From contig NZ_JAMXMV010000026.1 of assembly GCF_024055715.1 (NCBI RefSeq), positions 1-64,000 of the forward strand: a DNA stretch of 64,000 nt. The letters run 5' to 3'. Shown one piece after another: positions 41,383-64,000 of the stretch (its first letter is position 1; the number at the start of each line of letters is the position of its first letter). This DNA comes from Actinoallomurus soli (GTDB taxonomy: Bacteria; Actinomycetota; Actinomycetes; Streptosporangiales; Streptosporangiaceae). Below the pieces are notes generated by a model. That model made no database searches. It was not told the origin of the DNA and was given only the letters and a program-made list of their open reading frames with translations. The translations under genes were made by a program, and so were the position numbers.

Positions 41383-42624
41383 TCACCAGGTGACGGGCAG
41401 CTCGTAGATCCCGTAGACGAGGGTGTCGTGCCTGAACTTGATCCGAGCCGGATCGATGGCCAGGGCGAGCGTCGGAATGCGCCGGTACAGAGTGCCGTAG
41501 ACGACCTGGAGCTCCAGCCTGGCCAGGGGCCGGCCGAGGCACTGGTGGACGCCGAACCCGAAGGCCATGTGCCCTCGGGCATCGCGGTGCACGTCGAGCC
41601 GGTCCGCGTTGGGGAATACGGTCTCGTCGCGGTTGGCGACCTCGTTGGGGACGATGATGCCCTCACCCGCGCGGATGACCGTGCCGGCGATCTCGATGTC
41701 CTCCATGGCCACCCGGCGGACTCCGTTGTGCACGGGGGACAGGTACCGCAGCATCTCCTCGACGGTGCGCGCGATCGAGTTCGGATCGTCCGTCGCCCGG
41801 ACCTCGGTGAGCTGTTCCGGGTGCGTCAGGAGGGCGTATGTGCCGAGAGCGATCATATTCGCGGTGGTCGCGTGCCCGGCGATGAGCAGCAGCAGTCCCA
41901 TGAACGCCAGGTCCGGCCGGGAGAGCCTCCCGGTGGCGACGTGCTCGGCGGCTACCCGGGACAGCAGGTCGTCACCGGGCTCGGCCAGTTTGCGCTCGAC
42001 CAGGCGGTCGAGGTACATGAGCAGCTCTTCCTGCGTCTTCCCCGCGACCTCCGGCGGGGTGTCGTGAGTGATCAGCGTCCCGCTGGCCCGCTGGAAGTAG
42101 TCGTGGTCGGTGTACGGGACGCCGAGGAGCCGGCAGATCACCAAGGAGGTCAGCGGCAGGGCGAACGCGGTGACGAGGTCGACCGGGGACGGGCCGGCCA
42201 GCAACTCGTCGATGAGGTCGTCAACGAGGCTCTGAACACCGGGTCGCATCCTCTCGATCCGCTTGACGCTGAAGGCCTCGGTGACCATGCGGCGCTGCTG
42301 CGCGTGCTCCGGGTCGTCCATGAACATGAAGCTGAAGGGCTGTTCGCGATGCATGTACGTGGCAGGAGTCAGATGCGGGTAACCGTCCGCGCGCGGGTTC
42401 GTACTGAGCCGCCGGTCCGTCAGGAGGGCACGCTGCTCGGCGTGCCGGGTAACGAGCCAGGGGGTGCTGCCGTCCCATAGGCGCACCCGCACTAGCGGCC
42501 CCTCGGCCCGCATGGCGGCCAGGTCCGGCGGCGGGTCGAGCGGGCACCCCTCCGCGCGCGGCATCGGGTAGTCGGGAATGTCGTCCGGTTCCCGGTCGGG
42601 ACGTTCGGTCAGTGATCGCGCCAT
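41383..42624 (-). CDS. Cytochrome P450 at the edge of the polyketide cluster
   Basis: A 413-residue P450 of the CYP105/107-like actinomycete type. It has the C-helix segment DPEHAQQRRMVTEAF, ExxR in EEMLRYL, and the haem loop FGFGVHQCLGRPLARLEL with Cys near residue 362. The I-helix reads LLIAGHATTANMIAL; the acidic residue of AGxE/DTT is replaced by Ala, while both Thr are kept. Its promoter lies in the duplicated segment before SARP copy 1, so it may be under SARP control. It is a candidate tailoring oxidase for the polyketide. No ferredoxin gene is adjacent. Confidence 0.9.
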   Translation of the reverse strand: MARSLTERPDREPDDIPDYPMPRAEGCPLDPPPDLAAMRAEGPLVRVRLWDGSTPWLVTRHAEQRALLTDRRLSTNPRADGYPHLTPATYMHREQPFSFMFMDDPEHAQQRRMVTEAFSVKRIERMRPGVQSLVDDLIDELLAGPSPVDLVTAFALPLTSLVICRLLGVPYTDHDYFQRASGTLITHDTPPEVAGKTQEELLMYLDRLVERKLAEPGDDLLSRVAAEHVATGRLSRPDLAFMGLLLLIAGHATTANMIALGTYALLTHPEQLTEVRATDDPNSIARTVEEMLRYLSPVHNGVRRVAMEDIEIAGTVIRAGEGIIVPNEVANRDETVFPNADRLDVHRDARGHMAFGFGVHQCLGRPLARLELQVVYGTLYRRIPTLALAIDPARIKFRHDTLVYGIYELPVTW

Positions 42625-42739
42625 GGGACCACACCTCCACGGTAAGCGGGGCTGGGCTCGGCATCCGACGTATCTGCGCCTCGCATAATTGATCCCCCGC
42701 CGGCAGGACGTGACAACCGACAGTGAAATCCTGATGCTT

Positions 42740-44058: not shown

Positions 44059-44119
44059 AGCCGGCGGCAGGCGTTCTAGCGTGGCCCTGCCCGGGCTCGG
44101 CAGAAGGGGCGACCTGTGA
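43307..44119 (+). CDS. SARP-family pathway activator, copy 1
   Basis: A 270-residue regulator. The N-terminal OmpR-type DNA-binding domain is residues 1-95 (MRYEILGPLRIVSGGREFEL; RRADASLYVYISQLRKFISS). The bacterial transcriptional activation domain is about 100-248 (LHRGPVLGGLPCGPTVTNFA; LREVFYELLMTALHRCGRSA). SARPs activate antibiotic biosynthesis genes. ATG 43307 is preceded by AAGAGGAAT. Its stop overlaps the start of the type II thioesterase (GTGA). It differs from copy 2 by twelve residues in the shared region and has its own C-terminus. It is the probable activator of the tetronate-type cluster. Confidence 0.93.
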   Translation: MRYEILGPLRIVSGGREFELRSHKMQVLLATLLVRYDQVVPADRLLGELWGQDPPRRADASLYVYISQLRKFISSVERAESKILTKSPGYMLSIGAAELDFERFYDLLSKGRELYADGHPQEAAAVLSEAIELHRGPVLGGLPCGPTVTNFATLVEELRLECLEILIEANLALGRHREMIGLLYSLTAEHPLREVFYELLMTALHRCGRSADALRTYHHARTLIVEELGVDPGRPLRELHQTILTDDAKERAGGRRSSVALPGLGRRGDL

Positions 44120-44865
44120 CGGAGCCGGACGGCCGCTGGATCCGCAGGTTCCGGCCAGTCCAAGACGCGCGCGCCACACTGGTGTGTTTTCCCTTCGCAG
44201 GCGGGTCGGCGAGTTACTTTTTTCCTCTTTCCCGGGCACTGCCGGCCTGGGTCGAGGTCTGCGCGGTCCAGTACCCGGGACGGCAGGACCGCAGGAGCGA
44301 GTGCTGCATTGAGGACATCGTCGTGCTCGCGGATCGCATAGCCGAGGCCCTTCGGGGCTGGCCGAGGCGGGATATGGTGTTGCTCGGGCACAGCATGGGC
44401 GCCACGGTGGCGTTCGAGGTGGCCCGCAGGCTTGAGTTCTCGGGAAGTGTCGGGCCTTCGCCCACCCGCCTGATCGCGTCTGCCCGCCGAGCGCCCACGA
44501 TTCCCACCGAAACGCTGGTGCATCGTCGCACTGACAGCGAGATAATGTCTGAAATGCGGCGCCTGCAGTCCTCGAGTACAGCTGCGATCATCGACGATGA
44601 ATTACTGAGTTCCTTCCTTCCCGCGATTCGGGCGGACTTCAAGGCGATCGAGACGTATGTATGTGCGGCCGACACTGAGATCGGCTGTCCCATAACGGCC
44701 TTCGCCGGGGAGGCCGACCCCGTTACGTCGCTAGACCAGGTCACGGCATGGGCCGAGTGCACGAGCGGAGAATTCGATCTCCGGGTCTTTCCTGGCGGTC
44801 ATTTCTTCCTGGATGGCTGGAGTAGCGCGAATGTAGCTGTGATCGAAGAATATCTTGTTGTCTAG
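44116..44865 (+). CDS. Type II thioesterase (PKS editing)
   Basis: A 249-residue alpha/beta hydrolase of the GrsT/TEII class. It has FPFAGGSASYFFPLSRALP near the N-terminus, the nucleophile in LLGHSMGATVAFEVA, the Asp in FAGEADPVTS and the His in FPGGHFFLDGW. TEII enzymes remove aberrant acyl groups from carrier proteins. It starts at GTG 44116 overlapping the SARP stop, so regulator and editor are co-transcribed. A decayed copy of this gene follows SARP copy 2. It strongly supports a PKS cluster. Confidence 0.93.
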   Translation: MTEPDGRWIRRFRPVQDARATLVCFPFAGGSASYFFPLSRALPAWVEVCAVQYPGRQDRRSECCIEDIVVLADRIAEALRGWPRRDMVLLGHSMGATVAFEVARRLEFSGSVGPSPTRLIASARRAPTIPTETLVHRRTDSEIMSEMRRLQSSSTAAIIDDELLSSFLPAIRADFKAIETYVCAADTEIGCPITAFAGEADPVTSLDQVTAWAECTSGEFDLRVFPGGHFFLDGWSSANVAVIEEYLVV

Positions 44866-45745: not shown

Positions 45746-45887
45746 GCCTCGGCACACACCCGGGGCATGGGGGTAGATCGCCGGATCCGGTCGGGTCATG
45801 CCGGCGCGGCGCTGGTCGTCCGGCCGGCAGGGGAGATCCCGACCTGATCGTGACTCTGTCTTCACCGTGAGTCGAGGGCAATCGTTT

Positions 45888-45909
45888 GTTGTAACACAAC
45901 AATTGTTGT
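45888..45909. promoter_or_regulatory. Overlapping palindromes before the MFS exporter gene
   Basis: GTTGT-AAC-ACAAC (45888-45900) overlaps ACAAC-AATT-GTTGT (45896-45909), giving three regularly spaced half-sites of TTGT type. They end 12 bases before the ATG at 45922. This is the kind of site bound by MarR repressors, and a MarR gene follows in the same operon. Confidence 0.65.
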
Positions 45910-45921
45910 ACGGTAACGGTC

Positions 45922-47873: not shown

Positions 47874-47893
47874 CCACCGAAGGCGGGAAATCC

Positions 47894-48481: not shown

Positions 48482-48613
48482 ACCCATGGCCTGACGAATG
48501 TGCTGTTCGTGATCCCGTGAGCCCCTCGTGCCGTCCGACGCGGAGGAGGGGCTGGTCGGCCAGGACCGCGGTGGACTGGGCGGCCCGGCGTCACCCTGTC
48601 GCGTTCCAAGCGC

Positions 48614-50164: not shown

Positions 50165-50317
50165 CGACTCTCGTCCAATTCGTCCGGTCCTGCGGTAGGC
50201 CGTCCTACGTCGGCTCGCGGAGCTTCAGCGGACGCCGGGGAATCCGGTAGGCCGGCCGACTCTGGGGGCGGGTGCATTCGATGCCGATGTTCACAGGGGA
50301 CCCTAAAGGCTACCTTT

Positions 50318-51535
50318 CGGCATCTTATGCAGCTCGAGATGCTTCAATGCACGGCCCCTCATTTCAACACGGTCGGCCATGCGGCTTGGTTCGGTCTTAA
50401 TCAACTCTAAAGTCGCTGGGTGGAGGCGTTCGCGGCCGGTCGCTGAAAGGTGAGCAGTTCCTTGCTCTGTCATACGTGAGGCCGGCTCGCAAGGCGGCCG
50501 TCTCATGCGATGACTACGCGCCACATAAGAGCACGATCGTCACATCGAAATCACATGCCATCTGTGCAACGCCGACCCTTAGGGGGGTGCCGACGCTTTG
50601 CCTCGGGGCGAGTGGCTGGATAGGGTGTCTTGTGTTGACACGCAAAACCCGCTGTCTTAATGTGATCTTGTAAGTGACGACTTCGCCGGGAAGAGTGTGG
50701 CTGCAGCCGTAAGCTCCAGGACGGACCTCGGCGTACGGGCAGGAAATCGATTCGCCATCGAGAACGGCAAGAGGAATCCTTGCATGCGCTATGAGATCCT
50801 AGGGCCCCTACGAATCGTGTCCGGAGGCAAAGAATTCGAGCTGCGATCACACAAAATGCAGGTCCTTCTGGCGACGTTACTGGTCCGTTACGACCAAGTG
50901 GTGCCGGCCGACCGACTTCGCAGTGAACTGTGGGGGCAGGATCCACCGCGGCGAGCGGACGCAAGCCTCTACGTATACATATCGCAGCTGCGAAAATTCA
51001 TCTCCAGTGTCGAGAAGGCGGAAAGTGAGATCCTCACAAAATCGCCTGGATACATGCTTGGCATAGGGGCGGCGGAGTTCGACTTCGAGAAGTTCCATGA
51101 CCTGCTGTCCAAGGGTCGCGAACTGTATGAGGAAGGGCACCCGCAGGAGGCGGCCGCCGTTCTGTCGGAGGCGATCGAGTTGCACCGCGGGCCGGTGCTG
51201 GGCGGGCTTCCGTGCGGCCCCACGGTCACCAACTTCGCGACGCTGGTGGAGGAGTTGCGACTTGAGTGCCTCGAGATACTCATAGAGGCGAATCTCGCCC
51301 TCGGCCGTCATCGGGAGATGGTAGGGCTGCTGTACTCACTGACCGCCGAGCACCCGCTGCGCGAAGTGTTCTACGAGCTTCTCATGACCGCACTGCACCG
51401 CTGCGGACGAAGCGCCGACGCCCTTCGCACCTATCACCACGCCCGGACCCTCATCGTGGAAGAACTCGGTGTGGATCCCGGCAGGCCACTGCGTGAGCTC
51501 CATCAGACCATCCTGACGGACGACGCGAAGGAGCG
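50318..51535. repeat. Segmental duplication, copy 2 (control region plus SARP gene)
   Basis: The counterpart of 42740-44058, in the same orientation 7.6 kb away. The control part is diverged, shortened near 50690-50730, and retains the -35/-10 pair. The last 401 bases (51135-51535) are identical to copy 1 except one base. Homology to the thioesterase gene continues in pieces to about 51756. The 619-base gap 50165-50783 before the SARP gene contains no other coding region. Confidence 0.9.
50635..50663 (+). promoter_or_regulatory. Promoter for SARP copy 2
   Basis: TTGACA (50635-50640), a 17-base spacer and TAATGT (50658-50663), at the position matching the promoter of copy 1. The hexamers are kept while the spacer has diverged, which supports function. 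Confidence 0.65.
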
Positions 51536-51662
51536 GCCCGGCGGGAGAGGGTTCAACGGACGACATGGCCGAGTCCCTTCGGGGCCGGGCGAGGCGCGCC
51601 ATGGAATCACTCGGGCACAGCACAGGCGCCACGGTGGCGTTCGTGGTGGCCCTCAGGTCTGA
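50784..51662 (+). CDS. SARP-family pathway activator, copy 2, with altered C-terminus
   Basis: A 292-residue near-duplicate of the SARP at 43307: same OmpR-type DNA-binding domain and activation domain, with twelve substitutions, mostly in residues 15-125 (for example RLLGELWG to RLRSELWG). After TDDAKER the sequence changes, and the last ~40 residues (GFNGRHGRVPSGPGEARHGI and on) are out-of-frame translation of decayed thioesterase DNA. ATG 50784 is in the conserved context; a longer reading from 50697 is not matched in copy 1. Both DNA-binding domains look functional, so two paralogous activators may act on the cluster. Confidence 0.9.
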   Translation: MRYEILGPLRIVSGGKEFELRSHKMQVLLATLLVRYDQVVPADRLRSELWGQDPPRRADASLYVYISQLRKFISSVEKAESEILTKSPGYMLGIGAAEFDFEKFHDLLSKGRELYEEGHPQEAAAVLSEAIELHRGPVLGGLPCGPTVTNFATLVEELRLECLEILIEANLALGRHREMVGLLYSLTAEHPLREVFYELLMTALHRCGRSADALRTYHHARTLIVEELGVDPGRPLRELHQTILTDDAKERPGGRGFNGRHGRVPSGPGEARHGITRAQHRRHGGVRGGPQV

Positions 51663-51883: not shown

Positions 51884-53797
51884 ATGGCGTCACGTGAGGC
51901 GACGACCGGCCGGAACTCCGGGTCGGCAACCGACTTCTTCGGGCTCTTTCGCGCCGGGGACCTGGCTGTCCGCTACCCCGAGGTCCCGGCCCTGCTCGCG
52001 GGACTGGACGGCCTGGAGATGATACGCGCCGGGCAACTGCTCAGCCGGCTTGATCCTGCGGCGGTACTCAGCGCCCATCCGGGTACGAAGACCATCCGGG
52101 TCGCGATCACCGGCCATGGTGAAGTGGCGCAGTTGCAGCCGGCTCTTACGGCGGAGCTCGCGCGCCATGGACTGCTGGCCCGGTCGGTGGTGGCCCCGTT
52201 CGACAGCTACATCTTCGACTTGGCCGATCCGGCCAGTCGGCTTTACGCGGACAGGCCCGATATCACGATATGCCTGCTGGACGCGACGGTCGTCTTCGAC
52301 GAAGTTCCCGTGCCCTGGTGCCCTGAAGACGTGCGGCGGGTCTTCTCGGAAAAGCTGCGAACATTCGAGCAGATCGCAGCGACCTTCGCGATGAGTGGCC
52401 ACGGCACGCTCGTGCTGAACACGATGCCCCTTCCCTATCAGTCTGCCGCCCAACTCGTCGACTACCGGTCGCGTGCCGCGCTTGGCGTGTTGTGGAGAGA
52501 AGGCAACGCCGAGCTGCTGAGGCTCATGGAATCCAACCCTGCGCTCGTCGTGTTGGACCTAGAGCCGATGGCGGAGGATGTGCGCCTTACCGATCAGCGC
52601 CTCAGGGTATATGCGAGTGCACCTTTCACCACCGAGCTGACGGCCAATTACGCCCGGGAGATCGGCCATTTGGCCAGTGGGCTGGCCGGCCAGGGGCGGA
52701 AGTGCCTCGTGCTGGACCTGGACGGCACGATATGGGATGGCGTGCTCGGAGAAGACGGCGTCGATGGCATCGCGATTTCCGACAGCTACCGTGGGCAGGC
52801 CTTTCAGACGTTCCAGCAGATCATCAAGCAGCTCGGCGCGCGAGGCGTCCTGCTGGCCGTGGTGAGCAAGAACGAGGCGTCCGTGGTTCGCGAGGCCCTG
52901 CGGGACCGGCCGGACATGACGCTGCGCGAGGAGGACTTCGTCCGCATCGTCGCCAACTGGCGTCCGAAGCATGAGAATCTCGCTGAGATCGCCCAGGCCC
53001 TGAACCTGGGTCTGGACAGCTTCGTGTTCGTGGATGACAGCCCGTACGAGTGCGGGCTGGTGCGCCGAGAACTGCCGGCGGTCGCCGTCATCTGCGTCGA
53101 TGGCGACCCTGCGCTGCACGCGGGGCGGCTGCTGCGGGACGGATGGTTCAGTACCCGCGATTCCACCGACGAAGACCGTGGCCGGACCGCGAGATACCGT
53201 GACGAGCTGGTGCGGAAGGACTTCCTGGATAGCTTTGAGTCCATCGAGGACTATCTGCGAGAACTCCAGATCGTCGTGCGCGTGCGTTCCGCCGAATCCG
53301 GCGATGTGCCGCGGCTGTCGCAGCTCACGCTGCGCACCAACCAGTTCAATCTCACCACGCGGCGCATGCAGCAGTCGGAGGTGAGCGCTCTGCTTCAAGA
53401 CCCCGGCTGGATGGTGCTGGCCATCAACGCGAGCGACCGATTCGGCGACAAAGGCCTTGTGGGCGCCATCTTCGCTCGCCGCCAAGCGGATGTGATCTAC
53501 ATCGATAACTTCGTGTTGAGCTGCCGTGTCTTTTCACGCGGGATCGAGCAGGGCTGCCTGGCCGCGCTTCTCGACCATGCGATCGCCAGCGGCGTGACCG
53601 CGGTTTTCGGCGAGTACCGGCCAACGGCGAAGAACGGCATCGTCGGCGATCTGTATCCGCGATACGGGTTCCGGCCCGTGCCGGCCGCGACCATCGGCGA
53701 CAAGACCGCCAGGTTCCGGCATGACCTCCGCGAGCCGCTCGAACGGCCTGTGCACCTGCAGATGGAAGAAGACTTTTCAGGAGGCCTCTCGTCGTGA
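51884..53797 (+). CDS. FkbH-like HAD protein, glyceryl-ACP synthase
   Basis: A 637-residue protein. An N-terminal SGNH-like domain is followed by the HAD-IIIC domain with nucleophile Asp278 and Asp280 in LDLDGTIWDGVLGEDG, AVVSKNEASVVREAL and SFVFVDDSPYEC. The C-terminal GNAT-like region includes LTLRTNQFNLTTRRMQ. FkbH proteins dephosphorylate 1,3-bisphosphoglycerate and load D-glyceryl onto a carrier protein. ATG 51884 has AGGAGG upstream. A free-standing ACP gene overlaps its 3' end. Without the dehydrogenase and methyltransferase genes of methoxymalonyl-ACP pathways, and with KAS III and E2-type genes adjacent, tetronate formation is the best fit. Confidence 0.93.
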   Translation: MASREATTGRNSGSATDFFGLFRAGDLAVRYPEVPALLAGLDGLEMIRAGQLLSRLDPAAVLSAHPGTKTIRVAITGHGEVAQLQPALTAELARHGLLARSVVAPFDSYIFDLADPASRLYADRPDITICLLDATVVFDEVPVPWCPEDVRRVFSEKLRTFEQIAATFAMSGHGTLVLNTMPLPYQSAAQLVDYRSRAALGVLWREGNAELLRLMESNPALVVLDLEPMAEDVRLTDQRLRVYASAPFTTELTANYAREIGHLASGLAGQGRKCLVLDLDGTIWDGVLGEDGVDGIAISDSYRGQAFQTFQQIIKQLGARGVLLAVVSKNEASVVREALRDRPDMTLREEDFVRIVANWRPKHENLAEIAQALNLGLDSFVFVDDSPYECGLVRRELPAVAVICVDGDPALHAGRLLRDGWFSTRDSTDEDRGRTARYRDELVRKDFLDSFESIEDYLRELQIVVRVRSAESGDVPRLSQLTLRTNQFNLTTRRMQQSEVSALLQDPGWMVLAINASDRFGDKGLVGAIFARRQADVIYIDNFVLSCRVFSRGIEQGCLAALLDHAIASGVTAVFGEYRPTAKNGIVGDLYPRYGFRPVPAATIGDKTARFRHDLREPLERPVHLQMEEDFSGGLSS

Positions 53798-54021
53798 ATA
53801 GCCTCGAGGAGCTGATCACGCTCATCCAAGACGAGCTCGGAATCGCTGTGACGGCCGACGACGCCGGCCGCAGCCTCGATGAGATCCCAGGATGGGACTC
53901 GGTCCATCTGTTGTGGCTGGTCACCGTTGTCGAGCGGCGCACGGGGCGGCCGGCGTCGCTTCCCGACCTGCTGGAGGCGCGTGACATCGAGGGCCTGTAC
54001 ACCGTCCTGGAGGGAGCGTGA
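53794..54021 (+). CDS. Stand-alone acyl carrier protein for the glyceryl unit
   Basis: A 75-residue ACP. The phosphopantetheine site is Ser36 in IPGWDSVHLLWLV. It starts at GTG 53794 overlapping the FkbH stop and ends overlapping the acyltransferase start, so the three genes are translationally coupled. By analogy to AbyA3/Agg3/RkE-type carriers it would hold the glyceryl thioester used in tetronate ring formation. Confidence 0.93.
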   Translation: MNSLEELITLIQDELGIAVTADDAGRSLDEIPGWDSVHLLWLVTVVERRTGRPASLPDLLEARDIEGLYTVLEGA

Positions 54022-54773
54022 GGTACCCGGCCATGGCGGCCGAACGCCGCCATACCTTGTATTTCCTGGGCGAGACCCGGGCGTTCTCGCCCGTCTTCCT
54101 TGATTCCGAGATTGACATGACGGCCGTCCTCGGCCATCGGGCAGCGGAACGGGACGCGGGGCGTTCGCTGTCGGTCGTGTCGTACGTGGTCCATGCGGTA
54201 AGTCACGCCATGGCCCGCCACCCCGAGGCCAACGCGGCCGTCCGCGGGCGTCTCCGGCCACGCCTGGCGAAGTATGCCGACGTGAACGCCAAGGTGACAT
54301 TCGACAAGAACATGAACGGGCACCGCGTTGTCCTCTCAGCCGTCCTGCGTGGTGCCCAGAGCGCGACTCTTGATGAGATACAGGCGTGGCTTGAGGTACA
54401 TCGTGAGAGCGATCCGATGTCGGCCCCTGAATTCGCGGGAGTGCGCCTGCTCCACCGGCTGCCGGCCTGGCTTGGCCGGCCGGCCTTCCAGATACGGTCG
54501 CGGTCGCTCGCCCAGCGCCCGACGCTGTTCGGCACCGTCGCCGTGACGTCACTCGGCCACCGGCCGGTCGACGGCTTTCATTCCGTCGGCGGGACGACCG
54601 TCACCTTCGGCGTGGGGCGCATAGCGGATCGGCCGGTCGTGCGCGAGCAGCAGGTGACCGCCGTCCCGGTCATGCGGCTGAGCATGGCGTTCGACCATCG
54701 GGTGATCGACGGGGCGGAGGCGGCCGATGTGCTGGCCGACGTGAAAGCCGGCCTGGAGGGCTTCGCCGAGTGA
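54018..54773 (+). CDS. E2-type acyltransferase (tetronate O-acyltransferase)
   Basis: A 251-residue protein consisting of only the catalytic domain of 2-oxoacid dehydrogenase acyltransferases (E2). The motif is SMAFDHRVIDGAEAADVL (HRxxDG). There is no lipoyl or subunit-binding domain. Homologous enzymes in agglomerin and abyssomicin pathways (Agg4, AbyA4) acetylate the hydroxymethyl group of the tetronate so that it can be eliminated. The start overlaps the ACP stop. It ends 17 bases from the convergent KAS III gene. The function is inferred from the gene set. Confidence 0.87.
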   Translation: MRYPAMAAERRHTLYFLGETRAFSPVFLDSEIDMTAVLGHRAAERDAGRSLSVVSYVVHAVSHAMARHPEANAAVRGRLRPRLAKYADVNAKVTFDKNMNGHRVVLSAVLRGAQSATLDEIQAWLEVHRESDPMSAPEFAGVRLLHRLPAWLGRPAFQIRSRSLAQRPTLFGTVAVTSLGHRPVDGFHSVGGTTVTFGVGRIADRPVVREQQVTAVPVMRLSMAFDHRVIDGAEAADVLADVKAGLEGFAE

Positions 54774-54790
54774 GTGTCCGTTCAGCGAGA

Positions 54791-55825
54791 TCAGATCCGC
54801 TCGAACGCGAAGCCGGCTTTTATCCACTTGCTGGACTCCACGGCGAGACCCAGGGCGCGGTCGCCCGGTGCCATCTCGGTAAGCGCGTGCTCGACCTGGA
54901 TGAACGGAAGGGCGTTTCCCGTGTTACCGGTATCGACCACGCAAGAGATCTCCTCTGCTCCCGGGACACCGAGGCCATCGACGATTGCAGGGGTCATTCT
55001 GCCGGACAGCTGGGGTGGCAAGATGAAGTCGAAATCGGACTTCTCCCATTTCAGGTCCTCGAGCAGCTCCCGCATGATCTCGGCGGTCATGACCGGCACC
55101 GATTCCTCGATGGCCTTGTATTCCTCGGCCGCTGGCGGACGTCCGGAGTGGCGGTCGGCCAGCCCGTACCATTCCAGCGTCTGGCCTGGTTCCCGGCCGA
55201 GGCCGGTCAGCCGGGTGAACACACGGTGCAGGACGGCGCGGCCGCCTGCCCGACCACCGGACCGCAGCACCAACGCACCGGCTCCGTCGCCGAAGAGGAG
55301 GAGGTTCACCAGCTGGGGCGGCGGCATGCTGGAGATGCTCATGGCGGGGTCGAAGTGCTTGGCCGTCGTGTCCCCGCCGATCACCAGCGCGGTCTGGTAT
55401 CGCCCGGTCAGTATCAGGTGGTATGCGACATCGAGCGCTTGTACGGCCCCTGAGCACCCGGACTGCAGCTGGTATGTCGGCACGTCGTTGATTCCGAGCC
55501 GCTCTGCGACCATGTTGACCGTCGCGGGCATGAGCATGTCCGGGGTCGCGGTCCCCATGACCATGAAGTCGACCTCTGCCGGTGCGATCCCGGCGGCCGT
55601 GAGGGCCACGCTCGCGGCGTCGGCCGCCAAGTCGGTCAGAGATGCCTGCTGCTCGCCGGTATCAAGGTCGCGTGCGAGATGCCGGGTGCGCGTGCCGATG
55701 AAGTGGTCGACCCACTGCTCCCAGACCTTGTCCATCTTGAAGTGCCGTGCCAGCCGAGCGTTGTCCACCGGCTTTCCAGGCAGCGCACTTCCGGCCGACA
55801 ATATGCGGACCTCTGGTTCTTCCAT
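54791..55825 (-). CDS. KAS III-like ketosynthase for tetronate ring formation
   Basis: A 344-residue FabH-fold condensing enzyme. The nucleophile Cys124 is in YQLQSGCSGAVQALDVA, and LLLFGDGAGALVLR is the typical glycine-rich stretch. The Asn is in VDTGNTGNALPF (about residue 301). At the usual IPHQAN position the sequence is ILPPQLSG (about residue 270), so the catalytic His is replaced by Pro. Known relatives (AbyA1, Agg1, RkD) join glyceryl-ACP to the polyketide and close the tetronate ring. It lies downstream of the PKS on the same strand with a 78-base gap. A role as the fatty-acid FabH is unlikely given the context. Confidence 0.88.
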   Translation of the reverse strand: MEEPEVRILSAGSALPGKPVDNARLARHFKMDKVWEQWVDHFIGTRTRHLARDLDTGEQQASLTDLAADAASVALTAAGIAPAEVDFMVMGTATPDMLMPATVNMVAERLGINDVPTYQLQSGCSGAVQALDVAYHLILTGRYQTALVIGGDTTAKHFDPAMSISSMPPPQLVNLLLFGDGAGALVLRSGGRAGGRAVLHRVFTRLTGLGREPGQTLEWYGLADRHSGRPPAAEEYKAIEESVPVMTAEIMRELLEDLKWEKSDFDFILPPQLSGRMTPAIVDGLGVPGAEEISCVVDTGNTGNALPFIQVEHALTEMAPGDRALGLAVESSKWIKAGFAFERI

Positions 55826-55903
55826 GTATTTTATTATTCGATTCCCCTCTAAAAGGGGCCTTGGGTGCGCCTGTTGGATCGGCCTGGCCTCGCCTGCGGC
55901 TCA

Positions 55904-58900
55904 TCAGCTGCCCAGTTCCTTGTCCAGCGCGTCGAAGAGCTCATCGTCGGTCGCCGTATCGAGGTCGGCCGAGTCGCCTCCCGAGGGCGCGTACCGCTGC
56001 AGAAGCGTGCGCAAGCCGGCGATCAGCGGCCCGCGTTCATCGGGCGAGGCCGCCGCCACGATGGCCGTCTCCAGCGTTCGCAGGACCTTGGCAGGCGCCT
56101 CTGCCAGGGGCACGGTGGCGGCCGCGTCGCCGCTCAGCCTGGACTGCAGGCACTCCGTCAGGAGCGCGGCGGTCGGATAGTCGAATACCAGGGTGTTCGG
56201 CAGCTCCATGCCCGTTGCGGCTGCCAGCCTGTTGCGCAACTCCAGGGCCGTCAGCGAGTCGAAGCCGAGGTCGAGCAGCCCCCTGTCGGGGGCGATGGCC
56301 GCCGGTTCCGGGTGATCGAGCACGAGGGCTATCTGCTCCTGGACGAAGCCCAAGATCGCCGCGCCCCGCTCTTCGCGGGGCCGTTCCGCCAGGGCGCGCG
56401 CGAAGCGCGCCGGGTGGTCATGTCGCCGTGCGGCGGGCTGCTTCGTGGCCACGAGGCCCCGGTAGACCGCGGGCAGGTCCTTCAGCCGGCCGAGCGCGGT
56501 GGTGTCGAGGACGGCCGGCACGAGGAGGGACCGGTCGGGCACGGTGAGGGCGGCGTCGAACAGTTCGAGCGCCCGCTGGGCCGGCATCGGCGCGACTCCC
56601 CGGCGGGCGATCCGCCGCCGCTGTGTCTCGTCGAGCGCTGCCGCCATACCCTCGGCGCCGTCCCACATGCCCCATGCGAGCGACAGCCCGGCCTGCCCGC
56701 GGGCCCGGCGACGGGCGGCGATGGCGTCGAGGAAACCATTCGCCGCGGCGTAGTTCGACTGACCCGGGTTGCCCGCGACGCCGGCGATTGAGGAAAGCAG
56801 CACGAAGGCCGTGATGGGCAGGTCCGAGGTGAGTTCGCTCAGGTGCCAGGCGCCGTCTACCTTCGGCCTGAGCACCGTGTCGAATTCCGCTGCCGTGAGG
56901 TCGGCCAGCAGGCCATCGGCCACCGCGCCGGCGGCGTGGACGATGGCCCGGAGGGGCCGCTCTGCGGGAATGCCGGCGAGCAGTCCGGCGATGGCGGCCC
57001 GGTCGCCGACGTCGCAGGCGACGACTTGTGCCTGCGCACCGTCACGCGCCAGGTCCGCCAGCAGTTCGCTGACGGCCGGCCTGGTCATGCCGCCTCGGGA
57101 TGCCAGCAGCAAGTGGCGGACGCCATGCGCGGCGGCGAGGTGCCGGGCGATCTGCCCGCCTACCATCCCGCTGGCCCCGGTGATGAGGACGGTGCCCTCA
57201 GGGCCGAACGCGGCCGGCGGTTCCGCGGGCCCGACAGGGCCGGTGACCGGGACCAGCCGCGGCACCCGGCACTGCCCGGCTCGGACCGCTACTTGCGGAT
57301 CGTCGCCGGCCAGCGCCCGGGCCAGGGCATCGGCAGACGAGCCGCCGTCGACATCTATCACCTGAAGGCGCCCTGGATGCTCGCCTTGGGCGGCTCGTAC
57401 CAGGCCCCAGACGGCTGCGTGGGCGAGATCGGGCACGTCTTCGTCCCCTGCGGCGATGGCGCCCCGGGTGATCAGGGCCAGCCGGGCCGTGCTGAGCTCG
57501 GCTGCCGCCAGCCACTCCCGGATGACGGACGCGGCCCGCTCGGTGGCCAGGCGAACCGCAGTGGGAAGATCCCGCTCGGAGCCTTCCCCATCCGCGTCGC
57601 CGTCATGGCCTGGCCCGTACACCGGCACCGCCACCGTGCCCGGGACCGGGGTCCCCTCCGACAGCGCCGCGCGCAGGGCGGCCAGGCTCGCATGGCGAGG
57701 CGCCTCCAGACCGAGTCCGGTGTCGCCGAGGACGGCCAGCGTGGGGGGCGCGGTCGTGGTGCCGGCGGCCGGCATCCAGTCCACGCCGAACAGGTCGCCG
57801 GCCGCGCCCGTGCTTGCGGGCCTGCCGATCGGGGTCGGCCGGGTCACCAGGGAGCCGACCGTCAGGACCGGAGTGCCGTTTCCGTCGGTGGCGGTGAGCG
57901 CGATTCCGGACCCCGTCCGGGTGAGCCGTACGCGGAGCGCTCCGGCGCTGGTGGTCCGCAGGCGGACACCGGACCAGGAGAACGGGACCTCGGCCGAGCC
58001 GGTGAGTTCAGCCGCTCGAGAGGCCCCGGGCAGGACCGCGTCGACGAGCATGGCATGCAGGGCGGCATCGAGCAGAGCCGGATGCACCATGAAGCCAGTG
58101 CCGTCCACGTCGTCGGCCAGGGCCACCTCGGCGTACAGGTCACTGCCGTCTCGCCACATCGCCCGTAGGCCCTGGAACGCCGGCCCGTACTCATGGCCCT
58201 GCTCGGACATGCGCTCGTACGCCTCGGCCACGTCTACCGGCTGGGCGCCCGGCTGCGGCCATGGCGCGGCAGGCTCGGACGGTTCCGGCGGTCCGGAGCC
58301 GAGCACGCCGACGGCATTGCGCGTCCAGGCCGACTCGCGTTCGGTTCCGGAGTCACGTGAGAACACGCTCAACCGCCGCCGCCCGGCTTCGTCGGGCTCA
58401 TCCAGCGTGACCTGGATCGTGACGGACCCCTGGTCGGGCAGCATGACCGGTGCTTCCAGGGTCAATTCCTCGATCGTGTCGCATGCGGCCTTGGCCCCGA
58501 CGCTGGCCGCCAGCTCCAGGATCGCGGTGCCGGGCAGGACCACCGCGCCGCCTACTGCGTGATCGGCGACCCACGGGTGGGTGCGCGTCGAGACCTGTCC
58601 CGCGTACGCCAAGGTAGCCGTGCCCGCTAGGGTGACATCCGCTCCGAGCAATGGATGATCCGCGGGCGCGAGGCCGATCGCGGCCAGGTCTCCGTGGTCG
58701 GGGGCTCCAGTGAGCCAGTGCCGGCGGCGCTGGAAGGCATAGGTGGGCAGGTCGGCCCGGCGCGCGCCCGCGTCGGTGAAGAAGCGTGACCAGTCGGCCT
58801 GGACCCCGCGGACGTGGGCCCGGGCCAGGCCGGTGACGATTTCGCGGGCCTCGGGGCGGCCCCGTCGCATGAGGGGGATGAACTCGGCCCGTCCCGCGGT

Positions 58901-61900
58901 GGCCGGGTCCACGGCCTCCTGGGCCATGGCCGACAAGGCGCCACCGGGGCCGAGTTCCAGGTACGTGCGGACCTGCTCGCCATCCAGCCTGGCCACGGCG
59001 GCGCCGAAGCGCACCGTTCCCCGGGCCTGCCGGGCCCAGTGGTCCGGGGAGCTCAGCTCATCGTCGCTGATCCGCTCTCCGGTCAAGGTCGACACGACGG
59101 GAACGGCAGCCCGCCGGTAGGTCAGGCCCGAGGCGACCGCGCGCAACTCGTCCAGGATCGGGTCCATCAGCGGCGAATGGAAGGCGTGGCTGACTTGCAA
59201 CCGCCGTGCTCGGCGGCCCGCGCGCTCGATGACGTGGGTCACCTCGTCGATCGAGGCCTCGTCGCCGGAAAGGACGACCGACGCGGCGCCATTGACCGCG
59301 GCGAGTCCTACCCGGTGGGCGAGCCCGTCAGTCCACTGAAGAACCTCCTCTTCCGACGCCCGCACCGCGAGCATCGCCCCTCCGGCCGGAAGCGCCTGCA
59401 TGAGCCGGCCCCGCCCGGCTACCAGCGTGCACGCGTCGGCCAGGGGCAGCACCCCGGAGACATGGGCGGCGGTGATCTCCCCGATGGAGTGCCCGGCCAC
59501 CAGGTCGGGGCGCACGCCCCAGTCTTCCAGCAGCCGGAACAGCGCTGTGCCCGTGGCGAACAGCGCGGCCTGGGTGAACACGGTCTGATGGAGGAGCGCG
59601 GCCTCGGGCGAGCCCTCGGCGGCGAACATCGCATCCCGCAGCGGCCGGTCGAGGTGCGCGTCGAGATGCTCGCACACGGCGTCCAGGGCCGCCGCGTAGG
59701 CGGAGAAGGACCGGTAGAGCTCGCTTCCCATGCCCGCATGCTGGCTGCCCTGCCCGCTGAACAGGAACGCCGTGCCGCCGGTCACCACCGAGCCCAGGAC
59801 GACGCCGGGTGCAGCCTCGCCTCGGCCGAGTGCTGTCACCGCTTTCCTCAGGTCGGCCGCACTGGCGCCGATCGCCACCGCGCGACGGCTCAGGGCGGCG
59901 CGGCCGGCGGCCAGCGTGTACCCCACGTCCACCGCGCGCAGCCCGGCATCCGACTGGGCGAGCCGGGCGGCCTGCGCGGTGAGGGCCGCCTCGCCGGCCG
60001 CCGACAGCGGCCACGGGATGACCGGCGGTTCCTCTCCGGCGGGGGCCTGGGCGCCGTTGGCCTCGGTCGGCTGGCGGATGATCACATGGGCGTTGGTCCC
60101 GCTGATGCCGAACGAGGACACCGCGGCTCGGCGGAGGCGGCCCGTCGCCGGCCACGGCACCGGGTCGGTCACGAGGCAGACCTGACCGGCCTCCCAGTCG
60201 ATGTGCGGGGACGGCGCGTCGACGTGCAAGGTCCGGGGAACCTGACCGTGCCGCATCGCCATGACCATCTTGATGATGCCGGCGACTCCCGCGGCCGCTT
60301 GCGTGTGCCCGATGTTGGACTTCACCGAACCGATGAGGACGGGCCCGGTGGTCCGGTCCTTCCCGTAGGTGGCCGCGATGGCCCGGGCCTCTATGGGATC
60401 CCCGAGTGCCGTTCCGGTGCCGTGCGCCTCGACCACGTCGATGTCGCCCGGTGACAGGCCGCCGGCCGCCAGCGCCTGCCGGATGACCCGCTCCTGGGCG
60501 GGCCCGTTGGGCGCGGTCAGGCCGTTGCTGGCGCCATCCTGGTTGACCGCGGAGCCGTCCAGCACCGCGAGCACCTCGTGCCCGTTGCGGCGGGCATCGG
60601 TCAGGCGTTCCAGCAGCAGCAGACCGACGCCTTCCGACCAGGCGGTGCCGTCCGCGCCCGCGGCGAAGGCCTTGCACCGCCCGTCAGGGGACAGCCCGCG
60701 CTGACGGCTGAACTCGATGAACAGGGTCGGATGGGCCATGACGGTAACGCCCCCGGCCAGGGCGAGGTCGCATTCGCCCTGCCGTAGCGCCTGAGCGGCG
60801 AGGTGAACGGCCACGAGCGAAGACGAGCACGCGGTGTCCACGGTGACGGCCGGTCCCTGCAGGCCGAACGCGTAGGCGACCCGCCCGGATGCCACACTCG
60901 CCGTGCTGCCGATCGAGAGATAGCCCTCCAGGCCGGCGGGAGCGCCCCTGACCTTGGACGCGTAGTCGTTGTGCATGACGCCTGCGAACACTCCGGTCTG
61001 GGTGTTGCGCAGGGACGTGGGGTCGATCCCCGCCCGCTCAAGCGTCTCCCAGGTGACCTCCAGCAGCAGGCGCTGCTGCGGATCCATGGCCACCGCCTCA
61101 CGCCCGCTGATGCCGAACAGCTCCTGGTCGAACCGCGTGGCGTCCTCGAGGAACCCTCCCTCGCGGGTGTAGGACGTCCCGGGGTGATCTGGATCAGGGT
61201 GATACAGCCGTTCCAGGTCCCAGCCTCGGTCGGTGGGGAAGCCCGATATGGTGTCGGCGCCGGTGGCAACGATCTGCCACAGGTCTTCCGGGCCGGCCGC
61301 GCCGGGGTAGCGGCAGGCCATGCTGACGATGGCGATGGCATCGTCGCCGACATGCGCCGTCGGCCGGGGGGCGGTGCCCGCGGTGGCCGTGTCCGCCAGC
61401 TCGGCTCGCAGGAAGTCCGAGAGCCGGTCCACGGTCGGATGATCGAAGATCGCGGTGATCGGGAGCCGGTACCCGGTTGCCGCGGTCAGCTGATTGCGCA
61501 GCTCCACGGCGGTGAGGGAGTCAGAGCCCAGGTCACTGAACGGCACGTCCACAGGAATGTCCGCCGCTTCGGCATGCCCCAGCACGTTCGCGGCGCTGCC
61601 CCGGACCAGTTCCCGTACGGCTCGTGCCCGCTCTTGGTCGGGAAGCCGGGCCAGGCGCTCCGCGAAGGAGGCGGAAGCGGACCCCGTCCTGGGGACGGCT
61701 CGCCTCAGGGCGGGCACCAGTCTTCCCAACAGCGGCGGCAAGGTGCCGTCGGCGGCCCGGGCGCGGAGGGCGGGCATGTCAAGGGCGGCCGGCACCACAG
61801 TGGGCCGGTTCGCGGCGAGGCTCGCGTCGAGGAGTGCGAGTCCGGTCTCCGTCGTCATCGGCTTGATGCCCGCGCGGTTCAGGCGCGCCCGGTCCCGGTC

Positions 61901-64000
61901 GCTCAGGTGCCCCGTCATCCCGCTTGCCTCTGACCACAGGCCCCAGGCCAGTGACGTGGCCGGCAGGCCGGCCTCCCGGCGGTACGACGCGAGGGCGTCC
62001 AGGAAGGCGTTGGCCGCGCCGTAGCCGGACTGCCCGGGAGAGCCGAGGGTGCCCGCCAGCGAGGAGAAGAGCACGAACGCCGATGGGCCGGCGTCCCGTG
62101 TCAGGTCGTGCAGGAGCCAGGCGCCCGTCGCCTTGGGGCGCATCACCGCCGTGAGGCGTTCCGGATTCATGGCCGCCACGGTGGCGTCGTCAAGGATTCC
62201 GGCGGTGTGGATCACCGCGGTCAGCGGCCGGTCCGGGGGGATGCCCGCGAGCAGGTCGGCGAGCGCATCGCGGTTCGCCACGTCACACGGGGCGAGAGCG
62301 ACCTCGGCTCCGGCCTCAGTCAGGCCCCTCACCAGTTCGGCGGCGCCCTCGGCCGCCGGCCCCTGACGGCTGACGAGCAGCAGATGGCGCGCGCCGTAGG
62401 AATGGACCAGGTGACGTGCCACGAGCCGGCCGAGTGTGCCGGTCGCCCCGGTCACCAGGACCGTGCCCGCCAGCGGCGCGCCCGCGAGCGGTGACGCGGC
62501 GTGCTCCGGGGCGGACGCGACCCGGTCCAGTTGAGGAAGGAGCACCTGCCGGCCGCGGATCGCCAGCTCAGGTTGACCGGTGCGCAGAGCCGCGGCGATG
62601 AGCGCGTCGGTCGTTGCCCAGTCATCGACGTCGACGAGCCCGAACCGGTCCGGATGCTCTGCCTGGGCCGCCCGGATCAGCCCCCAGGCGGCCGCGGCGG
62701 CCGGGTCGCCCGCCTCACCCTCGCCGGCGGCCATCGCCCGGCGCGTGACCACCACGAGCCGGGTAGCGGCGAGCAGGTCGTCGGCCACCCACTCCTGGAC
62801 GAGGTGGAGCAACCCTTCCGTGAGGTTCAGCGCGGCCGCTCCACGGTCGTCGTTCCCCGGGACGGCGACGGGCGCCAGGACGATCGGAGGCATCCCGCCG
62901 TCAGGAGCGGCCGCGGCTCGGATCCCCGTCAGGCTCTCCCGGGTTCCCAGGGGCGCCGGAAGGCCGAGGCCACGGGGGTCCAGGACGGCCCACGACGGGT
63001 TCTCCCCGCGGCCGGCAGGCGGGGCGGCATGCCAGGAGACTCCGAAGAGTGCCTGTTCCCGTGGGCTGCCGGTCGGCCTCAGCCGGTCCGGGGCGACGGG
63101 GCGCAGCGTGATGGAGTCGGCTGAGATGACCGGGGAGCCATCGGCATCGTATCCCGTGAGCTGGTAGGCGCCCGCAGGGCCAGGCGATAGGCGGATGCGC
63201 AGGAAGGAGGCGTCCAAGGCGTGCAGCCGCACGCCCGTCCAGGAGAAGGGAAGCGGCACGGTGCCCGGCTCGCCGGCGACGATGTGGTCGAGCGCCAGCG
63301 GGTGCAGCGCGGCGTCCAGCAGCGCCGGATGCAACCCGAAGCCATCCGGGACGATCGAGTCCGGCAACGCCACCTCGGCGTACATGTCACCGTCGAGCCG
63401 CCACAGGGCCTGCAGTCCCTGGAAAGCGGGACCGTACTCCAGGCCCGCGCCGGCGAGCGAGTCGTACGCGCGGTCCAGATCGACGGCGGTGGCGCCGGCG
63501 GGCGGCCAGGCCGTCCGGCTTTCCGCGGGGGCCTCGTCGGCGGAGCCGAGCGTCCCGGACGCGTGCCGGACCCATGTCGGCCCGGCCGGCTCCGCGCTGC
63601 CCTCAGGGGCGGCGGATGCGGTGCCCTCAGGGGCGGAGAATATGGTGACGGCTCGCCGTCCATCCTGGTCGGGGCCGTCAAGGATGACCTGGAACCGGAC
63701 GGAACCGTGCTCTGGCAGCACCAGTGGTGCCTCCAGCGTCAGCTCGTCGAGCCGGCCGAGCCCGGCGCGGTGGCCCGCCCGGATGGCCAGACTGGCGAAG
63801 GCGGTGCCCGGGAGCAGGACGGTGTTGTCGACCGTGTGGTCGGCCAGCCACGGGTGCGCGCGCAGCGACAGCCGGCCGGTCAGTATGGTCGTGTCCCGGT
63901 CGGCCAGAGTGGTCGCGTCGGCGATCATCGGGTGCGCCTCGGCAAGCGGGTCGCCGTTGGCCGGGTCGGCGCCGACGCCGTGCCCCGCAAGCCACAGGCG
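55904..64000 (-). CDS. Modular type I polyketide synthase (N-terminus beyond the window)
   Basis: The last 2,698 residues of a PKS; the frame stays open to the right edge. Reading 5' to 3' on the minus strand there are two modules. Module A (KS-AT outside): DH about 63900-63110 (WLADHTVDNTVLLPG, LLDAALHPL), KR about 62470-61770 (TGATGTLG, LDD, GYGAAN), ACP about 61610-61410 (Ser near 61517). Module B: KS about 61345-60080 (TACSSSL, EAHGTGT, KSNIGHT), AT about 59780-58720 (GHSIGE, HAFHSP, so malonyl-CoA), DH about 58650-57840 (ADHAVGGAVVLPG), KR about 57195-56480 (TGASGMVG, NYAAAN), ACP about 56340-56150 (LGFDSL). A short C-terminal docking region (DELFDALDKELG) follows and there is no thioesterase, so another PKS or the KAS III accepts the chain. 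Both modules should leave a double bond. Confidence 0.95.
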   Translation of the reverse strand, partial: RLWLAGHGVGADPANGDPLAEAHPMIADATTLADRDTTILTGRLSLRAHPWLADHTVDNTVLLPGTAFASLAIRAGHRAGLGRLDELTLEAPLVLPEHGSVRFQVILDGPDQDGRRAVTIFSAPEGTASAAPEGSAEPAGPTWVRHASGTLGSADEAPAESRTAWPPAGATAVDLDRAYDSLAGAGLEYGPAFQGLQALWRLDGDMYAEVALPDSIVPDGFGLHPALLDAALHPLALDHIVAGEPGTVPLPFSWTGVRLHALDASFLRIRLSPGPAGAYQLTGYDADGSPVISADSITLRPVAPDRLRPTGSPREQALFGVSWHAAPPAGRGENPSWAVLDPRGLGLPAPLGTRESLTGIRAAAAPDGGMPPIVLAPVAVPGNDDRGAAALNLTEGLLHLVQEWVADDLLAATRLVVVTRRAMAAGEGEAGDPAAAAAWGLIRAAQAEHPDRFGLVDVDDWATTDALIAAALRTGQPELAIRGRQVLLPQLDRVASAPEHAASPLAGAPLAGTVLVTGATGTLGRLVARHLVHSYGARHLLLVSRQGPAAEGAAELVRGLTEAGAEVALAPCDVANRDALADLLAGIPPDRPLTAVIHTAGILDDATVAAMNPERLTAVMRPKATGAWLLHDLTRDAGPSAFVLFSSLAGTLGSPGQSGYGAANAFLDALASYRREAGLPATSLAWGLWSEASGMTGHLSDRDRARLNRAGIKPMTTETGLALLDASLAANRPTVVPAALDMPALRARAADGTLPPLLGRLVPALRRAVPRTGSASASFAERLARLPDQERARAVRELVRGSAANVLGHAEAADIPVDVPFSDLGSDSLTAVELRNQLTAATGYRLPITAIFDHPTVDRLSDFLRAELADTATAGTAPRPTAHVGDDAIAIVSMACRYPGAAGPEDLWQIVATGADTISGFPTDRGWDLERLYHPDPDHPGTSYTREGGFLEDATRFDQELFGISGREAVAMDPQQRLLLEVTWETLERAGIDPTSLRNTQTGVFAGVMHNDYASKVRGAPAGLEGYLSIGSTASVASGRVAYAFGLQGPAVTVDTACSSSLVAVHLAAQALRQGECDLALAGGVTVMAHPTLFIEFSRQRGLSPDGRCKAFAAGADGTAWSEGVGLLLLERLTDARRNGHEVLAVLDGSAVNQDGASNGLTAPNGPAQERVIRQALAAGGLSPGDIDVVEAHGTGTALGDPIEARAIAATYGKDRTTGPVLIGSVKSNIGHTQAAAGVAGIIKMVMAMRHGQVPRTLHVDAPSPHIDWEAGQVCLVTDPVPWPATGRLRRAAVSSFGISGTNAHVIIRQPTEANGAQAPAGEEPPVIPWPLSAAGEAALTAQAARLAQSDAGLRAVDVGYTLAAGRAALSRRAVAIGASAADLRKAVTALGRGEAAPGVVLGSVVTGGTAFLFSGQGSQHAGMGSELYRSFSAYAAALDAVCEHLDAHLDRPLRDAMFAAEGSPEAALLHQTVFTQAALFATGTALFRLLEDWGVRPDLVAGHSIGEITAAHVSGVLPLADACTLVAGRGRLMQALPAGGAMLAVRASEEEVLQWTDGLAHRVGLAAVNGAASVVLSGDEASIDEVTHVIERAGRRARRLQVSHAFHSPLMDPILDELRAVASGLTYRRAAVPVVSTLTGERISDDELSSPDHWARQARGTVRFGAAVARLDGEQVRTYLELGPGGALSAMAQEAVDPATAGRAEFIPLMRRGRPEAREIVTGLARAHVRGVQADWSRFFTDAGARRADLPTYAFQRRRHWLTGAPDHGDLAAIGLAPADHPLLGADVTLAGTATLAYAGQVSTRTHPWVADHAVGGAVVLPGTAILELAASVGAKAACDTIEELTLEAPVMLPDQGSVTIQVTLDEPDEAGRRRLSVFSRDSGTERESAWTRNAVGVLGSGPPEPSEPAAPWPQPGAQPVDVAEAYERMSEQGHEYGPAFQGLRAMWRDGSDLYAEVALADDVDGTGFMVHPALLDAALHAMLVDAVLPGASRAAELTGSAEVPFSWSGVRLRTTSAGALRVRLTRTGSGIALTATDGNGTPVLTVGSLVTRPTPIGRPASTGAAGDLFGVDWMPAAGTTTAPPTLAVLGDTGLGLEAPRHASLAALRAALSEGTPVPGTVAVPVYGPGHDGDADGEGSERDLPTAVRLATERAASVIREWLAAAELSTARLALITRGAIAAGDEDVPDLAHAAVWGLVRAAQGEHPGRLQVIDVDGGSSADALARALAGDDPQVAVRAGQCRVPRLVPVTGPVGPAEPPAAFGPEGTVLITGASGMVGGQIARHLAAAHGVRHLLLASRGGMTRPAVSELLADLARDGAQAQVVACDVGDRAAIAGLLAGIPAERPLRAIVHAAGAVADGLLADLTAAEFDTVLRPKVDGAWHLSELTSDLPITAFVLLSSIAGVAGNPGQSNYAAANGFLDAIAARRRARGQAGLSLAWGMWDGAEGMAAALDETQRRRIARRGVAPMPAQRALELFDAALTVPDRSLLVPAVLDTTALGRLKDLPAVYRGLVATKQPAARRHDHPARFARALAERPREERGAAILGFVQEQIALVLDHPEPAAIAPDRGLLDLGFDSLTALELRNRLAAATGMELPNTLVFDYPTAALLTECLQSRLSGDAAATVPLAEAPAKVLRTLETAIVAAASPDERGPLIAGLRTLLQRYAPSGGDSADLDTATDDELFDALDKELGS

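Follow-up and report, generated by a model that had tools for sequence, protein, structure and literature searches.

A tetronate gene cassette beside a modular polyketide synthase in Actinoallomurus soli, with a predicted decalin tetronate product that most likely lacks a spiro ring

We analysed a window of 64,000 nucleotides (the whole stretch of DNA under study), which forms the start of contig C18 (96,494 bp) of Actinoallomurus soli and in which a cassette of genes for tetronate formation stands beside a type I polyketide synthase (PKS). An earlier note on this DNA had proposed a tetronate-type set of four genes here, encoding an FkbH-like protein, an acyl carrier protein (ACP), an E2-like acyltransferase and a β-ketoacyl-ACP synthase III (KAS III), and profile matches located all four at 51884-55825, directly followed by the PKS:

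51884..53797, + strand: FkbH-like glyceryl transferase/phosphatase, with ATG at 51884 and stop at 53797; TIGR01686 at 312 bits (cut-off 147)
53794..54021, + strand: stand-alone ACP for glyceryl; PF00550 at 20.7 bits, just below the 20.8 cut-off; GWDSV motif
54018..54773, + strand: E2-like acyltransferase (the AbyA4/Agg4 role); PF00198 at 80.6 bits; catalytic DHRVIDG intact
54791..55825, - strand: KAS III-like tetronate synthase; closest solved structure 5by7, 427 bits
55904..64000, - strand: type I PKS, covering the 3′ part of a gene (C18:55904-74965) for the first PKS protein

The FkbH, ACP and E2 genes overlap one another by 4 bp at each junction, while the KAS III gene lies on the strand of the PKS, ending 17 bases from E2 and starting 78 bases past the PKS stop. 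The longest FkbH frame opens at 51854 and gives 647 amino acids when read from there; residues D288/D290, K372 and D394/D395 are conserved in 15/15 aligned sequences, our own included. The cassette ACP shares 42-58% identity with the ACPs of other tetronate loci. In 4-kb bins the G+C content is 0.645-0.684 across 40-56 kb compared to 0.684-0.747 in the remaining bins.

A search of 393 other genomes for E2 identified 27 full-length homologues in 24 of them (39-66% identity, 161-340 bits), below which came one partial match (G276, 64% over 81 residues, 100 bits) and then ordinary E2s at 54 bits or less. For KAS III the runner-up among solved structures to 5by7 reached 105 bits, and the active-site residues Cys124 and Asn301 are conserved in 19/19 aligned rows including our own. 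By motif, the catalytic His of FabH is replaced by Pro in all 19 of these rows, 18 of which have LPPQL in common; the FabH-like protein L001 of the same genome reads PHQAN at the corresponding motif. A tree was built from 23 tetronate-linked rows (one G268 protein was entered twice, with different ends) together with six other KAS III proteins of the A. soli genome. In it the tetronate-linked proteins form one clade with support of 100/100 apart from the six, although these control proteins stand on long branches. Both proteins thus group with tetronate-linked proteins, KAS III by tree and E2 by a clear gap in score rather than by tree; the earlier note had named a position outside the tetronate clades as refuting.

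FkbH and a free ACP are common to the tetronate and methoxymalonyl pathways (PMC7489565), and the pair might instead make a methoxymalonyl-ACP extender, the KAS III and E2 genes standing beside it by coincidence. We rejected this reading because none of the genes that we examined at 36.9-55.9 kb and at C18:75-79 kb was recognised as an FkbI/FkbK-type dehydrogenase or O-methyltransferase gene, and the acyltransferase (AT) motifs are HAFH (malonyl) or YASH (methylmalonyl) in 9/9 domains. An O-methyltransferase is encoded on contig C42, located among sugar genes, and the five-gene tetronate set recurs consecutively in Actinomadura litoris, all of which makes a methoxymalonyl origin hardly credible; the tetronate reading survives the search for methoxymalonyl partners, which the earlier note had named among the findings that would refute it. 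Sequence comparison supports assigning the cassette to the tetronate rather than the methoxymalonyl set because of the five operon genes (the fifth on contig C45, presumably linked), the KAS III tree and signature, and the colinear A. litoris cluster.

The PKS part within the window was earlier described as having two successive modules with dehydratase (DH) and ketoreductase (KR) domains, and 55904-64000 indeed holds one complete DH-KR module together with the DH, KR and ACP of another. The first PKS protein (to C18:74965; protein C in the orders below) comprises a loading module KSQ-AT(malonyl)-ACP followed by modules M1 (malonyl, DH-KR), M2 (methylmalonyl, DH-KR) and M3 (malonyl, DH-KR). 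Beyond it C18 carries, to its end:

C18:75074-75931: DUF5753 protein
C18:76295-77785: flavoprotein FMO1
C18:77761-79299: flavoprotein FMO2
C18:79486-91383: PKS B, with a malonyl DH-ER-KR module (ER, enoylreductase) and a methylmalonyl DH-KR module
C18:91437-96494: end of a further PKS protein, methylmalonyl DH-ER-KR, which runs off the contig

Contig C45 (12,475 bp) opens inside a PKS protein immediately past its ketosynthase (KS) and then carries a 363-residue alpha/beta hydrolase, terminal PKS module E, a P450, a HAD protein and an aldo-keto reductase, its last listed genes being an NDP-hexose 2,3-dehydratase and a GFO/IDH oxidoreductase. Contig C52 (4,004 bp) is an AT-DH-KR-ACP-KS(part) fragment. 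The earlier note had called for a search for an eliminase. We take the C45 hydrolase to be the fifth member of the tetronate set, an eliminase of the AbyA5 type probably linked to C18, because it matches the AbyA5 crystal structure 4ywf (E 6.5e-97) and has homologues in 20 of the 28 relatives' E2 neighbourhoods that were compared, 19 of them adjoining E2; genes in these neighbourhoods were called by a codon-bias script that missed some starts and several small genes (ACPs and some E2s). Since KS and AT searches of the A. soli genome showed no other loose PKS ends, C45-C52-C18 is the only linear join seen for the broken PKS protein (the sizes of C10, C18, C22, C42, C45 and C52 were considered), and we infer that the three contigs are joined in this way.

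Module E (L042:2449-6528) reads KS-AT-broken KR-ACP and lacks a thioesterase, which leaves a β-keto end. Among the loci compared, a set without the A. litoris cluster on contig C35, its KS came closest to those of the terminal modules in A. wychmicini and A. kijaniata. In the ACP of this module the residue preceding the pantetheine Ser, usually Asp, is a Ser, giving Ser-Ser. By the rule of our script Ser, Thr or Asn replaces this Asp in 7/7 distinct terminal KS-AT-ACP modules (6/6 without our own module, which was admitted by name because of its KR remnants), and four more modules with KR remnants, judged terminal by eye, have Ser at the position. Other distinct ACPs that follow a KR have Asp in 56/58 cases by rule, the two unscored ones reading FDS by eye, and the 16 loading ACPs have Asp (13), Glu (1), Ser (1) or were unscored (1). 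This change might be what marks the terminal ACP for recognition by the tetronate KAS III.

A counterpart of the whole arrangement was identified on one 449 kb contig of A. litoris NEAU-AAG5 (G395:C35), where the five tetronate genes stand together and share 62.5% (KAS III), 59% (FkbH), 58% (ACP), 62% (E2) and 55% (eliminase) identity with those of A. soli. They are followed by PKS proteins in the order loading-M-M-M, then (malonyl DH-KR, methylmalonyl DH-ER-KR), then (malonyl DH-ER-KR, methylmalonyl DH-KR), then a terminal KS-AT-ACP and an FMO2 protein of 54% identity. This corresponds to the order C-D-B-E of the present cluster, D being the broken protein, with one AT changed (M1 of A. litoris loads methylmalonyl by motif), and suggests how the contig pieces fit together. 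When module pieces of the two clusters were compared, 7/9 scored highest against their positional counterpart. PF18678 was found in neither genome. The A. litoris cluster differs in having no deoxysugar homologue and one FMO in the 120 kb read. Nine genes follow its FMO2: an SDR protein, a SnoaL-like protein, a P450, a luciferase-like monooxygenase, a TetR regulator and three transport proteins, with the ninth lacking a Pfam match at 1e-5. D-like, B-like and E-like PKS proteins are also present in G207, where some DH motifs went unmatched and no ACP was found on the E-like piece. A second A. litoris tetronate locus (G395:C23; L076, L235) has FkbH, KAS III, E2 and an FMO of its own, and PF18678 was found nowhere in that genome.

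The order of the PKS proteins was taken from this colinearity together with chain chemistry, because docking ends gave no decision; the order C-B-D-E would give no dienophile at C4=C5. For C-D-B-E, module logic predicts the chain CH3-CH=CH-CH=C(Me)-CH=CH-CH=CH-CH2-CH(Me)-CH2-CH2-CH=C(Me)-CO-CH2-CO-S-ACP and, after tetronate formation and elimination, the product CH3-CH=CH-CH=C(Me)-CH=CH-CH=CH-CH2-CH(Me)-CH2-CH2-CH=C(Me)-CO-(5-methylene-tetronate), C24H30O4 (calculated [M+H]+ 383.222); for the A. litoris cluster the predicted formula is C25H32O4. Its predicted tetraene, four-carbon tether and alpha-methyl-enoyl tetronate with exocyclic methylene make up the pattern that ChlE3 closes to a decalin; the synthetic ChlE3 substrate, as read from the account of its synthesis, has a four-carbon tether, an alpha-methyl-enoyl unit and a diene (PMC13273814).

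Of the two flavoproteins between the PKS genes, FMO2 scored 319 bits against ChlE3, 311 against Tmn9 (6ui5), 288-280 against ordinary oxygenases, 273 against PyrE3 and 267 against TedJ (8r1r), the Tmn9 and TedJ structures being assigned as in PMC12380092. The best solved relatives of FMO1 are PgaE and 4k2x, given as OxyS in PMC7489565. A tree of 32 of the 33 flavoproteins submitted (L211 was dropped as too incomplete) places FMO2 on the cyclase side (98/97), apart from OxyS, PgaE, FlsO1, 4k5r and rifampin monooxygenase. Its clade (100/97) also contains proteins from G347, G395, G207, G162, G268 and a second G394 locus, and adjoins the clade of ChlE3, PyrE3, KijA (our label for L080:5325-6797), TedJ and Tmn9 (100/98), the deeper forks being only partly resolved. 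By its sequence relationships the FMO2 clade appears to be an uncharacterised group beside known ring-closing cyclases. FMO1 groups with G162 and G347 proteins (100/100) on the monooxygenase side. Elsewhere in the A. soli genome, G000:C60:298018-325539 carries a neighbouring KS pair and four FMO2 homologues within 30 kb, which suggests a type II aromatic polyketide cluster, and at G000:C22:494000-512000 (L045) two KAS III matches adjoin a type I PKS match and a flavoprotein-like gene.

The earlier note had favoured a tetronate or spirotetronate. The spirotetronate option found no support, as no cyclase of the AbyU/ChlL family was found in the genome and the chain probably does not reach the length that a spiro macrocycle usually needs. 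PF18678, which we take to be the family of AbyU and ChlL and which matches in spirotetronate producers, had no match in the A. soli genome in a Pfam model search in which no control genome matched, although the model matched relatives in a separate search. A profile built from 13 spirocyclase sequences found nothing in the genome at E up to 1 and in the same search recovered the positive controls A. wychmicini (1e-34) and A. kijaniata (8e-33); G162 gave one weak match (E 0.1). Among other E2-bearing genomes PF18678 was present in 13/16 and 10/21 (nine of the ten above cut-off), or 23/37 in all. When we looked for a hidden barrel protein, the small genes seen in the cluster encoded DUF6886, PEBP-family and DUF5753 proteins, which were the best match of no gene in the 28 relatives' loci. 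Tandem pairs of AOC_like (AbyU-family) genes lie within ~1 kb at G268:C161 and G284:C80.

A class II spirotetronate, with the decalin closed by FMO2 and the spiro ring by an unassembled, diverged or other-family cyclase (FMO1 or FMO2, for example), would agree with the presence of all genes for an exocyclic methylene dienophile, with the predicted terminal diene C14-C17 and with deoxysugar genes, since class II compounds often bear oligosaccharides (PMC6521127). We consider it rather unlikely: neither PF18678 nor the 13-row profile matched in the A. soli genome, PF18678 was likewise not found in A. litoris with its contiguous cluster or in G162, G207 and G347, and by our own count a bond from C14 to the methylene or to the spiro carbon would give a ring of 7-8 atoms only. 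The product is most likely non-spiro because no spirocyclase was found and the chain is short. A protein of the FMO2 clade linked to PKS or tetronate genes occurs in six genomes (our own, G347, G395, G207, G162 and G268), and PF18678 is missing in 5/6, G268 having it on another contig; these counts, which are too small for statistics and come from draft assemblies that can miss genes (the A. litoris cluster is contiguous), leave out G394, which has PF18678 and in which no tetronate gene was seen in the 20 kb surrounding its clade member.

Taken together, we think it probable that A. soli has a complete tetronate pathway split over contigs C18, C52, C45 and perhaps C42, leading to a non-spiro decalin tetronate, perhaps glycosylated. 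With enzyme roles assigned by analogy to known families, the chain would be primed at the KSQ loading module of the PKS protein next to the cassette, pass through eight modules in the order C-D-B-E and finish as β-ketoacyl-ACP on the terminal module, which lacks a working reduction. FkbH would form glyceryl-ACP from a glycolytic C3 phosphate, and KAS III would couple this to the β-ketoacyl chain, releasing an acyl tetronate. E2 would then acetylate the tetronate CH2OH and the AbyA5-type enzyme remove the acetate to give the exocyclic methylene. FMO2 would most likely act in the manner of ChlE3 and close a trans-decalin from C4=C5 and C10-C13, and the P450s, FMO1 and sugars may modify the product further.

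Several observations weigh against this pathway. In a broken assembly of 98% completeness a gene may have been missed; C52 could exist in more than one copy; and C42 is a separate contig, a candidate for the missing part of the sugar pathway. Docking ends did not separate the order C-D-B-E from C-B-D-E, M1 has its best A. litoris match at another position and M2 gives a tie, and the DH motifs of M2 and M4 carry Asn/Asp for the usual Gly of HxxxG, their activity being assumed. PF18678 is missing in 14/37 other E2-bearing genomes (G162, G100, G395, G250, G347, G207, G251, G056, G339, G198, G371, G089, G249 and G316), so its absence is not rare. FMO2 itself falls outside the clade of characterised cyclases, and with its six closest relatives has TPF where PyrE3, TedJ, ChlE3 and KijA have AHF, a comparison made by motif and not by residue number. 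In PyrE3 and TedJ this His is a substrate contact (PMC12380092; the match of motif to residue is ours). Its absence, and a GTQ after the AGDAAH stretch where many aligned proteins have GGQ, would suit an acyl tetronate without a decalin, in which FMO2 is an ordinary monooxygenase and the chain is linear or otherwise cyclised. The His is not strict in the cyclase clade, however, the A. wychmicini protein having AFF and Tmn9 VRF, and Tmn9 is nonetheless grouped with the PyrE3-like cyclases (PMC7489565). With FMO2 on the cyclase side of the tree at 98/97 and the decalin pattern in the predicted chain, a product without a decalin seems distinctly improbable, and we retain the decalin tetronate.

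A broader proposal, which we put forward tentatively as a possibility short of an expectation, is that A. soli, A. litoris, G207, G162, G347 and perhaps G268 represent a scattered, undescribed tetronate subfamily having an exocyclic methylene, no spirocyclase and an uncharacterised flavoenzyme clade that closes the decalin or performs both cycloadditions, with a scaffold unseen among known spirotetronates. We know of no product of the A. litoris NEAU-AAG5 cluster or of any FMO2-type cluster, and none was found in literature on A. litoris or, among the matches listed, on Frankia tetronates. Among the tetronates are antibiotics active against Gram-positive bacteria with resistance, and the small number of natural Diels-Alder reactions whose enzymes are known includes their ring closures. 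A cyclase role for FMO2 would add to the family a clade with an altered active site, and a non-spiro product would mean that a decalin tetronate scaffold new to the field is on offer in a series of genomes; as the A. litoris cluster is contiguous it makes this directly testable. A survey of abyssomicin clusters took AbyU as its marker (PMC7176366), and searches of this kind would miss clusters without an AbyU gene.

The P450, two SARP regulators, type II thioesterase, major facilitator superfamily (MFS) exporter and carboxyltransferase that had been reported close to the cassette were all located at 41383-51662:

41383..42624, - strand: cytochrome P450; PF00067
43307..44119, + strand: SARP regulator; NCBIfam SARP models, with scores under their cut-offs
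44116..44865, + strand: type II thioesterase; PF00975
45922..47361, + strand: MFS exporter; PF07690
48614..50164, - strand: acyl-CoA carboxyltransferase (PccB type); PF01039 at 661 bits
50697..51662, + strand: SARP regulator; PF03704 and PF00486

The carboxyltransferase, 76% identical to its counterpart in the A. wychmicini tetronate locus, is a probable source of extender units. Homologues of the exporter are present in 13 of the 28 relatives' loci, and the P450 is 44-46% identical to P450s adjoining E2/eliminase genes in three closely similar loci (L051, L052 and L055). A flavohaemoglobin-like protein with globin and FAD/NAD domains at 36893-38068 lies outside the cluster. Deoxysugar genes comprise the NDP-hexose 2,3-dehydratase and GFO/IDH oxidoreductase on C45, presumably linked to the cluster, and on C42 (12,740 bp) two EryCIII-like glycosyltransferases, RmlA, RmlB, the O-methyltransferase and a DesI-type aminotransferase (672 bits, cut-off 650). 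Contig C42 also encodes a further FAD_binding_3 monooxygenase (L173:10631-12496).

Among known systems, the polyether tetronates (tetronomycin with Tmn9, tetronasin and tetromadurin) share the five tetronate genes and a PyrE3-like flavoprotein. They need a VstJ-like cyclase, and tetromadurin also an epoxidase and an epoxide hydrolase (PMC7489565), whereas no VstJ-family gene was found here and no epoxide hydrolase among the annotated cluster genes, no genome-wide search having been made for the latter. Abyssomicin (AbyA1-A5 and AbyU; class I) shares the five-gene set, including the AbyA5 match noted above, and differs in its AbyU, a family without a gene found here; the present cluster has an FMO2-type flavoprotein instead of such a gene. 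The class II spirotetronate loci (chlorothricin and those of A. kijaniata and A. wychmicini, the latter two presumably for kijanimicin and wychimicins) have tetronate genes, deoxysugars, the 4-carbon tether pattern, a flavoprotein near the terminal PKS module and a terminal KS of 68-70% identity in common with A. soli; they differ in the presence of a spirocyclase (PF18678 in A. kijaniata and A. wychmicini, ChlL in chlorothricin), and their flavoproteins are only 42-44% identical to FMO2. Tetrodecamycin, a non-spiro trans-decalin tetronate with an exocyclic methylene, likewise depends on an FAD-dependent decalin enzyme, TedJ (PMC12380092); TedJ falls in the characterised cyclase clade with Tmn9 and FMO2 in another, the comparison covering the Ted enzyme and product. 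With standard tetronate genes, a short PKS, no spirocyclase found and an unstudied flavoprotein clade, the A. soli cluster is a variant of known tetronate clusters, and the product that we predict as most likely is a decalin tetronate that has no spiro ring and perhaps bears a sugar.

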